A stretch of DNA of 26,136 nt. Origin: a virus. Positions 2,144 through 4,928 of this stretch are shown one piece after another. The stretch lies in the IMG/VR virus record IMGVR_UViG_3300027861_000175, positions 1 to 26,136 of that record; one strand, written 5' to 3'. The translations under genes and the position numbers were made by a program. Position 1 is the stretch's first letter, and the number at the start of each line of letters is the position of its first letter. The notes under the pieces are model-generated. The model worked only from the letters and a program-made list of their open reading frames with translations. It was not told where the DNA came from and ran no database searches.

Positions 2144-2342
2144 CTTTGGTTCCTCTGTTTATTTCCGTGTTAGTAAATTTAATTCTACAAGTATCTAATA
2201 CCATCACGGCATTCTTTCCTTCAGCATATGCATCAACAACTTTATCGGGATACTTATCCATGATTTCTTTTATTGATACTTTACCAAGCCTAAATTGAGT
2301 ATAACTCTCTCTATGCTCATCATTCAGTTCAATCTTTTTCAT
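2124..2342 (-). CDS. small hypothetical protein, 72 aa
   Basis: Starts MKKIELNDEHRESYTQFRLG. I choose the ATG at 2342 rather than an in-frame ATG at 2357 because GGAGAG lies 7 nt before it and the stop of the preceding membrane-peptide gene overlaps it as TAATG, which indicates coupled translation. The sequence is hydrophilic, with a possible short helix-turn-helix-like stretch (VSIKEIMDKYPDKVVDAYAE) and a beta-like segment NAVMVLDTCRIKF. No family recognised. It lies directly upstream of, and overlaps, the ParB-like gene. Confidence 0.7.
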   Translation of the reverse strand: MKKIELNDEHRESYTQFRLGKVSIKEIMDKYPDKVVDAYAEGKNAVMVLDTCRIKFTNTEINRGTKDGKKEQ

Positions 2343-2452
2343 TAAAATACTCTCCATATTCTTAATATTGATATAATTATTGTTAGTACAAACAATACAA
2401 TAATAATTATTTCAAAATACATATTTATAAATTCAACTACTCTATCTATCAT
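2342..2452 (-). CDS. 36-aa single-pass membrane peptide
   Basis: Short ORF starting MIDRVVEFINMYF and ending ISILRIWRVF. It has GAGGTAAGAT directly upstream as Shine-Dalgarno, and its stop overlaps the next start (TAATG). About residues 13-30 are almost entirely Ile, Val, Leu and Phe, a clear membrane helix, flanked by an acidic N-terminus and an Arg/Trp C-terminus, suggesting insertion with a basic cytoplasmic tail. Such peptides in early phage operons are often unknown host-takeover or holin-like factors; the function here is unknown. The coupling to the downstream gene is the main support that it is translated. Confidence 0.7.
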   Translation of the reverse strand: MIDRVVEFINMYFEIIIIVLFVLTIIISILRIWRVF

Positions 2453-2469
2453 ATCTTACCTCAAAATTT

Positions 2470-2542
2470 GGGAATGCTTCTCGTATGTTGGTTGGAGGAA
2501 CATGAGAAGGAAACACTCCCAACCATAGCTCTTCTCGAAGCT
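2470..2542 (-). ncRNA. compact structured RNA element, possible pseudoknot
   Basis: In the minus-strand RNA: a small 5' hairpin from inverted AGCT repeats (2542-2539 with 2530-2527), then an outer stem GGGAGTG/CATTCCC (2520-2514 with 2476-2470; 7 bp including one G-U), enclosing CTTCTC-ATGTT pairing with AACAT-AC-GAGAAG (11 bp with a 2-nt bulge). The terminal loop contains CCAACC, complementary to GGTTGG (2524-2519) at the 5' edge of the outer stem, so an H-type pseudoknot or alternative pairing is possible. It occupies the 157-nt gap between the 41-aa gene and the membrane-peptide gene and may be a leader regulator, a processing signal or a small RNA. No strong U-tract follows, so a simple terminator is less likely. 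Confidence 0.5.
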
Positions 2543-2609
2543 AAGTTATTAATTTTCTGCTATTAATTCCATTTACCATCAAAATTACTAGTATGAAAAC
2601 TTGTTTTTT

Positions 2610-2735
2610 TTACATCTCTTTAGCATCTTTATAGCCTCTTACATATTCATCAGTAGGTTTAAGCCGTTTTAAATACTTCTTCAAAGACTTAGCCGACTTA
2701 ACTAAATCTTCTTGATACATTATTAAATGTTTCAA
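2610..2735 (-). CDS. 41-aa basic helical protein, TTG start
   Basis: Starts at TTG with a near-ideal GGAGGATAACAA upstream, giving a 41-residue peptide MKHLIMYQEDLVKSAKSLKK... ending GYKDAKEM. It is Lys-rich, amphipathic and probably all-helical. No family recognised. It is the first gene after the large RNA locus and sits about 25 nt after that locus's terminal hairpin, so it is translated either from readthrough or as the 3' ORF of the same transcript. Strong ribosome binding site and reasonable composition support it; TTG as start lowers certainty slightly. Confidence 0.65.
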   Translation of the reverse strand: MKHLIMYQEDLVKSAKSLKKYLKRLKPTDEYVRGYKDAKEM

Positions 2736-2756
2736 TTTGTTATCCTCCAACATTAA

Positions 2757-2793
2757 TTATAAAAAGTTTAGGTAGCCCTAGCTTCTAACTACC
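2757..2793 (-). terminator. terminator-like hairpin at the 3' end of the large RNA
   Basis: Minus-strand RNA: GGTAGT-TAG, loop AAG, CTA-GG-GCTACC (2793-2771), followed by TAAACTTTTTATAA. The stem includes a T-G wobble valid only for minus-strand RNA. The U-tract starts 4 nt after the stem, so termination may be imperfect; the downstream 41-aa gene would then be served by readthrough. Confidence 0.5.
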
Positions 2794-3598
2794 AATAATA
2801 CGCTTTCGGGGCATTGACTGTTCTCCCTTTTAGCCACTCCATCTTTCGGCAGAGTACGTATCAAACACAACATCTTAGGGACATCATTCCTTACAGATTG
2901 GTTTATCTCTGCAACTAATAAGTTCAGTTTAGGATTCGCACCCTACTAACAAGTAATTAACTTGACCTGACTCTTCATCACAAACTATCAGCCTTGCGAG
3001 CGGATAGCACCCTAGTATTTCAAGGGTCTAGTGTTCTATGGACCAACCGTTTAGAGACTAATGCGTTATCTTTATTTAAGGTTAGCCGTCCCACGGGGGT
3101 TACCCGAGAGAGAGCCATCTTTTTAGAGATAATGGAAGGGGTGAAATGTCTGCTCTAAATTGTAGCTTACTCTCTTTCGAGAATCTATACTACGAGACAT
3201 CTCTATGTTCTCCGTTACAAGTTTACATGGTACAAATACCCACATGACAACCATTACTGGTAAGTCTAGGATACTCTACTGAACACAAGGTTTATTAGTT
3301 AACGTACTAATATAACTCATATTCTATGCATTTCCTTATTGTAGTTTCCTACTCACTCGGCTATTCCAAACCTTGATAATCGACCAACGCCTGCTCAAAG
3401 AGACTTAACGAGGCACCATATAATATGCACTTGCATACACAAACACCCTAAGATGTCGCTTACTCATCCCATCACTGAGAACTTTCAACTTTATATCTAT
3501 CTCTAGATTTATCTAACGAGTATATACACCCGAACAGTTTATGGACTGTTAGCCAAAGTTTGGTTGAGTTTGAAGACTTCCCAGGTCTAAAACTTGCC

Positions 3599-3736
3599 CT
3601 ACTCTTTGCCATACAACAAAGCTTCGGGGTACTTCTCTTTACATTGCTGCAAAGATACAGATATAAATACTACCTGTCGTGTACAATCAAGTACAACACA
3701 CCACACTTTAGTGGCGTAATCCAATCGTATAGACAT
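3599..3736 (-). CDS. possible 45-aa protein encoded inside the large RNA locus
   Basis: ORF MSIRLDYATKVWCVVLDC... ending ALLYGKE, preceded by an excellent AAGGGAGGTAAT ribosome binding site. The peptide has a plausible beta-hairpin-then-helix composition (VWCVVLDCTRQVVFISVSL followed by QQCKEKYPEALL) and three cysteines. It divides the locus into a 5' part of about 490 nt and an ORF-free 3' part of about 840 nt. Against it: it lies in a strongly structured region, where chance ORFs occur. A longer in-frame ATG at 3856 lacks a ribosome binding site and is probably not used. No family recognised. Confidence 0.45.
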   Translation of the reverse strand: MSIRLDYATKVWCVVLDCTRQVVFISVSLQQCKEKYPEALLYGKE

Positions 3737-4228
3737 ATTACCTCCCTTAGTCTTGATTAGTAAAAATCTTGATGTTATAGTCTTTGTTCTGACTTTATTA
3801 TACAACTGTCGATGTGGGACATAAGTTTTCGTACTAATGAATTGTCTCCGTGACAAAACACTTTCCTTACTTGTCGGTCAAGCATTTCCTATGCTATCCC
3901 ACATCCAACCGTTCATGGCTCTTGCAACCATCATACTTTGTGCGACCACATTGTATCGTTAAAATGTTATTTACATTCAACACCTGCTCGTGACAGATGT
4001 GGAAATAAAATCACATTATCCTTTAGACATTATTTGAAAAACATCCGTGGACTTCCTATCTAATGTGAGTTCTTTCGAACGCTTTGAGCCTAACACCTAT
4101 TTATACTCGCTCAAACGAGTTGATTGGAAGGATGGATATACGGAGAACGAAGGTATCCACCACCAACCTGTTCGGTATAAGTTACATCTATATAACCTAT
4201 CAGTTTATTAGACTGACATACCAATACA

Positions 4229-4275
4229 ATTAAAAACAAAAAAAGGAGGAAATAGTTCGCTACGCTACTTCCCCC
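4229..4275 (-). terminator. strong Rho-independent terminator after the 4317-4598 gene
   Basis: Minus-strand RNA: GGGGGAAGTAG (4275-4265), 9-nt loop, CTATTTCCTCC (4255-4245), 11 uninterrupted base pairs with two G-U, then TTTTTTTGTTTTT. Wobble polarity fixes the strand as minus. It ends the transcript of the small gene just upstream and implies that the large RNA locus either starts from its own promoter immediately downstream or is reached by readthrough. Confidence 0.85.
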
Positions 4276-4316
4276 CCCAACCCATACGAAAAACCTTAGC
4301 TAGAATGCTTACTTGA

Positions 4317-4598
4317 TTAGATGTCCCAAGAGGATAACTTTTCAAGCTCGTCTAATATCTCTTTAAGTGCCGCTTTACCATCTGCTACGCAAGTGATAGA
4401 GTCATTCCACTTCTTCCTTGTAGCTCTCCGCTCAAGAGTAGACACCATAGTGATGTACTTGTTCTTAAGTTTAAACTGAGTTCTACGTGGCTTCAGAGGA
4501 ATCTCTTCAATTGCATCAAAGATTGCTTCAAGTAATGTCACACACATCTTATCAGAAATAACCGAAGATATTGCTGACGTCAAAATCATACCAGTCAT
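4317..4598 (-). CDS. small hypothetical protein, 93 aa
   Basis: 93 residues, beginning MTGMILTSAISSVISDK, with ATTAATAGGAGTAAAGT upstream (AGGAG, good spacing). The N-terminal 30 residues are hydrophobic to amphipathic, the middle is basic (LKPRRTQFKLKNKY, ERRATRKKW) and the C-terminal third is an acidic helix (AALKEILDELEKL). No family recognised. It is the first leftward gene from the divergent control region and is followed by its own strong terminator, so it is a monocistronic unit and may be an early regulator; that is inference. Confidence 0.7.
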   Translation of the reverse strand: MTGMILTSAISSVISDKMCVTLLEAIFDAIEEIPLKPRRTQFKLKNKYITMVSTLERRATRKKWNDSITCVADGKAALKEILDELEKLSSWDI

Positions 4599-4928
4599 AC
4601 TTTACTCCTATTAATGTTTAGATTAACGAAAAATCATCAAAAACTAAATCAAAAATAACGTAATCACGATAGTGAAAACCATCCCGTAAGGGGTACCACA
4701 AGAAAGAAACCCTATACTGCATTTTCACATAATTTTTAAAATCTCTTTCTTTTTTTCATTTTTTTTTATATATTTTCATACCTCCTATTTGACATTAACT
4801 CTAATTTCAAGGTGGGAGGATGGGATGTAAGGCTTAAATATAACAACTAACGACTTAAGAAAAGAATTAGGGGCTGTAGAGGTTAGTAACTGTTTTTCAT
4901 ATATATATTTTTTTAGTATATTCTAGGT
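4599..4928. promoter_or_regulatory. divergent intergenic control region between leftward and rightward genes
   Basis: 330 nt with no convincing gene. It separates the leftward gene starting at 4598 from the rightward late cluster starting at 4929, so promoters for both directions should lie here. Visible elements: an inverted repeat GTGAAAA / TTTTCAC (near 4671 and 4723) around a CCC-GTAA-GGG hairpin; a T-rich tract at 4741-4778; a perfect TTGACA at 4789-4794 with no good -10 at the usual distance; AT-rich TTTTTTTAGTATAT at 4908-4921, just before the first plus gene, with its last 12 nt repeated before the terminase gene at 7443-7454. I cannot name a promoter with confidence; phage-specific polymerase or sigma sites are possible. 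Confidence 0.5.

Follow-up and report, generated by a model that had tools for sequence, protein, structure and literature searches.

The window, i.e., the whole 26,136-nt stretch of DNA analysed here, originates from an uncultured tailed phage and contains terminase, portal and other head genes. Its locus at 2757-4228 holds, in 5' to 3' order on the minus strand, a Pistol ribozyme, a structured RNA of ~312 nt, a gene of 45 codons and a divergent GOLLD RNA. A group of minus-strand genes lies downstream of GOLLD, with a match to a ParB-like partition protein at 1394-2143 (phrog_12305, E=4e-20). The raised GC content that the first-pass annotation had noticed was confirmed: the locus has 0.36-0.42 per 300 nt and the flanks about 0.29-0.35, although coding sequence elsewhere in the window reaches 0.39-0.40 in places. 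The reported hairpin density exceeded chance on the minus strand, where 17 hairpins (G-U pairs allowed) were counted versus 5.7 +/- 2.2 in dinucleotide shuffles, none of 200 shuffles being as high, while the plus strand was at the shuffle level (5 versus 4.4). Minus had been proposed as the RNA strand, correctly so because both Rfam matches, GOLLD and Pistol, lie there, and the hairpin excess is specific to it. No tRNA was present in the 26 kb, as stated before, and neither a tRNA nor a tmRNA occurs in the window as neighbour or insert. The cmscan search against Rfam, which the same annotation had proposed, yielded over 2300-4900 and up to E=5 only GOLLD, Pistol and one weak match at chance level.

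The Pistol self-cleaving ribozyme (4064..4120, minus strand) matches RF02679 over its full length with 50.5 bits, above the gathering score of 34.5 (E=1.2e-6 over the window). The core motifs AUAAA, UUAGGC and AGCG are all there. The P1-loop pseudoknot can form between UUUGAG and CUCAAA in the window and between UCUGAG and CUUAGA in two related contigs, L053 and L007, which represents compensatory changes. From alignment to the family, cleavage is predicted between C4069 and U4068. All three sequences have C-U as the scissile dinucleotide, the commoner one being G-U; Pistol cleavage junctions are strict in length and somewhat variable in identity (PMC4604425). Pistols of the window's subtype (GGUGUUAGGC) were also observed directly before short open reading frames, as a tandem pair in L033 (2993 and 3386) and in L040 (988). 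Upstream of the ribozyme, a terminator-like hairpin read by eye, GGAAGTAG...CTATTTCC followed by a T-run (4238..4272, minus strand), ends the preceding gene; it is absent from the list of a consensus terminator scan. L053 and L007 have different terminator-like hairpins at the same place before the Pistol. Between hairpin and ribozyme lies a conserved element, TAGATGTAACTTATAC (GTAACTTATAC; 4175..4190, minus strand), that L053, L007 and L264 also have ahead of their Pistols, the last on a contig (L065/L264) that stops inside its Pistol. Within the window it is the sole near match (1 mismatch), and it may function as a promoter. The predicted order on the minus strand is stop, start, short leader, Pistol and structured RNA.

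The sequence behind the ribozyme (3757..4068, minus strand) is a candidate structured RNA of ~312 nt that belongs to no known class and matched nothing in Rfam at E values up to 5. It folds better than its shuffles (z = -3.27) and is conserved, together with the Pistol, in L053 and L007. Across the Pistol and this region, 18 pairs had changed on both sides; shuffling gave 7.8 such pairs and sliding 0-3. The support for its structure appears good but not deep, because only three sequences exist. Covariation, another of the checks proposed earlier, was seen here and in the GOLLD 5' domain (six phages). The first helix of 8 bp, UCACAUUA with UAAUGUGA, starts at 4068, where the 3' product of the predicted cut begins, and after cleavage would take the place of Pistol helix P2. 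A role of the 312-nt RNA as the 5' domain of GOLLD was ruled out since the pistol-free relatives have in common a 5' domain that adjoins the 3' domain.

The locus had been described as nearly free of open reading frames over 1.47 kb, a view not confirmed, since a conserved gene of 45 codons lies on the minus strand (3736-3599) with the Shine-Dalgarno sequence GGGAGG at 3746-3741. Compared to its homologue in L053, eight codon changes were synonymous and one was non-synonymous, and the differences at codon positions 1, 2 and 3 numbered 2, 0 and 7. A homologue exists also in L007. This excess of synonymous changes indicates a gene under coding selection; the product had no Pfam match. The gene divides the locus into two distinct RNA regions. 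In the gap between Pistol and GOLLD, L053 and L007 each have an additional small open reading frame with a Shine-Dalgarno sequence.

The first-pass annotation had named GOLLD and ROOL as the nearest known types. The ROOL covariance model matched nowhere in 2300-4900 at E values up to 5, and GOLLD was borne out for the promoter-distal half, about 3556-2774. The GOLLD 3' domain (2774..3203, minus strand) matches all 416 positions of RF02032 without truncation (109.1 bits, E=3.6e-29 for the 2.6 kb searched), under the gathering score of 150. A structured, less conserved 5' domain lies directly upstream (3204..3556, minus strand): among six phage sequences, 34 of its 73 consensus pairs had both sides changed with the pair kept in at least one. 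The full-length 3' match and the covarying 5' domain together justify the designation as divergent GOLLD. Of 80 loci collected because they have a related terminase, 44 records were searched for GOLLD; six contained it with 111-168 bits, the scores being 111-141 bits apart from record L341, which at 168.4 bits is above the cut-off. Three of the relatives (L342, L345, L346) have the same GOLLD start behind ordinary small genes and no Pistol module. This common start consists of a hairpin with covarying stem and conserved loop CCAUA, followed by the hairpin CGGGUG-AUAU-CUCG, and it places the GOLLD 5' end near 3556 in the window; together with the covarying 5' domain it suggests a GOLLD of about 780 nt. 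The TTTGG..CCATAAA block before GOLLD was considered as a promoter and is better read as the covarying 5' hairpin with its conserved loop. DNA searches gave no GOLLD relative of the window's lineage among named phages. At classical GOLLD loci, tRNA or tmRNA genes are frequent neighbours. On three contigs (L083 436-519, L180 4199-4274, L187 7165-7223) a tRNA gene begins within about 5-15 nt of the 3' end of GOLLD, and this end could therefore be generated there when RNase P processes the tRNA.

The recurrence of the pair was assessed on contigs that are fragments from uncultured viruses. Two narrow patterns retrieved 97 distinct Pistol-bearing viral contigs (75 and 24, two in both), and seven of them contained GOLLD (L002, L007, L049, L053, L094, L367, L371), in all cases downstream of the Pistol on the same strand, with 0.37-1.5 kb from the Pistol start to the GOLLD 3' domain. 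L094, L367 and L371 are identical in sequence at this locus, hence six distinct cases result when the window is counted. They fall into two GOLLD lineages, A (window, L053, L007) and B (L002, L049, L094). Lineage A has a constant order on one strand with gap insertions of 0, about 270 and about 600 nt; in the window the Pistol is located about 510 nt upstream of GOLLD with the gene between them. In lineage B no gene separates the two. With cut sites positioned by eye from the family alignment, the predicted cut of L002 falls exactly where the first GOLLD helix (UAGU/ACUA) begins, that of L049 lies 4 nt and that of L094 some 50 nt before this helix, i.e., a distance of 0-4 nt in two of the three distinct cases. 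In the reverse direction, a Pistol was found in 1 of 47 GOLLD records searched, among the matches listed, for a sample mostly derived from one motif, and an all-Rfam scan of 19 further GOLLD-type loci detected no Pistol above the cut-off. These counts do not support the idea that GOLLD is generally preceded by a Pistol. A motif search of the stretches surrounding 21 bacterial and 3 phage Pistol loci revealed no GOLLD.

Other elements were observed at the same position. Directly 5' of GOLLD, L085, L127, L132, L165 and L347 carry a conserved pseudoknotted element of ~55 nt (about 2615-2680 in L132), which fills the slot that Pistol holds in other lineage-B GOLLDs. Its helices P1 (7 bp, one position of which shows four pair types), P2 (7 bp) and P3 (3 bp) follow an HDV-like order with CUAA in the junction; the topology would fit an HDV-like ribozyme, but Rfam gave no match. 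L349 has a hammerhead-like stretch (CUGAUGA-UUCCAAAAGGA-UGAAU, about 330-430) just 5' of a lineage-B GOLLD, also without Rfam match and with position 15.1 off consensus.

Given the observed identities, positions and strand of these parts, their covariation and the recurrence of the pair, we lean, by a modest degree, towards the Pistol as a 5'-end maturation device for a mixed unit of structured RNA and mRNA including the divergent GOLLD, which it would probably shield from 5'-end-dependent decay. Transcription would probably start just before the Pistol, and self-cleavage between 4069 and 4068 would remove a short leader and create a 5'-OH end, whose first nucleotides would be held in the 8-bp helix of the ~312-nt RNA. 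This RNA would lead into the 45-codon gene and, by read-through, into the GOLLD of about 780 nt, for which homology predicts assembly as an RNA-only cage. In lineage B the matured 5' end would be that of GOLLD itself, or nearly so, while in the window it would belong to the 312-nt RNA and not directly to GOLLD. This maturation reading is favoured by the Pistol above cut-off and the full-length GOLLD match on one strand, the covariation in the 5' domain and the Pistol module, the uniform orientation in 7 of 97 contigs, the predicted cuts 0 and 4 nt before the GOLLD helix in L002 and L049, the window helix that begins at the cut, and the presence, in the window, L053 and L007, of a terminator-like hairpin and a promoter-like element immediately ahead of the Pistol. 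Against it stand the ~510 nt and the gene between Pistol and GOLLD in the window, the single Pistol in 47 GOLLD records among the matches listed, and the C-U dinucleotide in place of the commoner G-U. The GOLLD start shared with pistol-free relatives implies that the Pistol is not needed for GOLLD.

A tenable alternative, to which we assign clearly less weight than an even chance, regards the adjacency in the window's lineage as lacking a functional link: Pistol and 312-nt RNA would form the processed 5' leader of one or more small mRNAs, and GOLLD would be transcribed from its own start downstream. Pistols elsewhere commonly precede genes: at 37 of 102 sites a start with a Shine-Dalgarno sequence is no more than 250 nt away, and Bacillus phage Troll, Microcystis phage MaeS and Psychrobacillus phage Perkons provide examples; the further genes in the gaps of L053 and L007 and the identical GOLLD start of pistol-free relatives point in the same direction. 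However, the lineage-B Pistol abuts GOLLD with no gene between, and a scan, of consensus only, found no terminator in the interval between the small gene and GOLLD. The single 1.5-kb RNA of the first-pass annotation is not supported: upstream of GOLLD the locus resolves into Pistol, ~312-nt RNA and small gene, and the whole 1.47 kb as one RNA was rejected because the gene is conserved and relatives (L342, L345, L346) carry GOLLD without these parts. A continuous giant RNA of about 1.3 kb, with the Pistol-proximal RNA as extra GOLLD domain and the small gene as insertion, would agree with the constant order on one strand in the window, L053 and L007, but is improbable in view of the variable gap length and gene content (insertions of 0, about 270 and about 600 nt), of relatives having GOLLD without the upstream RNA, and of the coding selection on the gene. 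A new giant RNA class unrelated to GOLLD, suggested by the score below the curated cut-off (109 versus 150 bits) and the lack of a tRNA nearby, can hardly be upheld, as the full-length match (E=3.6e-29) contradicts it for 3203-2774 and leaves it only the 312-nt RNA, and terminase-linked relatives score 111-141 bits, L341 with 168 bits even above the cut-off.

GOLLD forms one of the largest RNA-only cages known. To our knowledge, no function of GOLLD is known, nor is the maturation of its transcript where an adjacent tRNA is lacking. For the maturation reading favoured here, an upstream self-cleaving ribozyme offers a concrete and easily tested step. Beyond the window, it is a tentative and rather doubtful extension that self-cleaving ribozymes are a recurrent means of GOLLD-transcript maturation, with Pistol in two lineages and the unclassified pseudoknotted element in other lineage-B members, and that the 312-nt RNA represents a new class of structured phage RNA. 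The locus reveals a divergent GOLLD subfamily, missed by standard annotation because it scores below the Rfam cut-off, together with an unclassified covarying 312-nt RNA. It links two RNA classes, both already known, whose pairing we found no report of in the literature; no paper with both 'GOLLD' and 'pistol' was retrieved by a search that most subscription papers lie outside.

In comparison to known systems, the window copy resembles GOLLD (RF02032; cryo-EM cage, PMC12286853) in its full-length 3' domain, the structured 5' domain directly before it and the location in a phage. Its length of about 780 nt compares with 833 nt in the solved cage RNA, the one GOLLD with known 14-mer cage assembly (PMC12286853). 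It differs in scoring below the curated cut-off, in having no tRNA nearby, a frequent but not required neighbour, and in what precedes it: a Pistol, the unclassified structured RNA and the 45-codon gene. The ribozyme shares with other Pistols (RF02679; PMC4604425) the full-length match above cut-off, the conserved core and a pseudoknot with compensatory changes; it differs by the C-U scissile dinucleotide, a short GAAA-capped P3 and a context that includes a giant noncoding RNA and not only protein genes. Phage ICP1 has an abundant noncoding RNA of ~800 nt (PMC7567579), likewise a giant RNA in a phage without tRNAs, which the passage concerned likens to GOLLD and ROOL by size only, with no ribozyme mentioned there. 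The HDV-like theta ribozymes beside phage tRNAs (PMC10879173) belong to another ribozyme class and process tRNA ends rather than a GOLLD-containing unit, but they too are phage self-cleaving ribozymes proposed to mature a neighbouring structured RNA.
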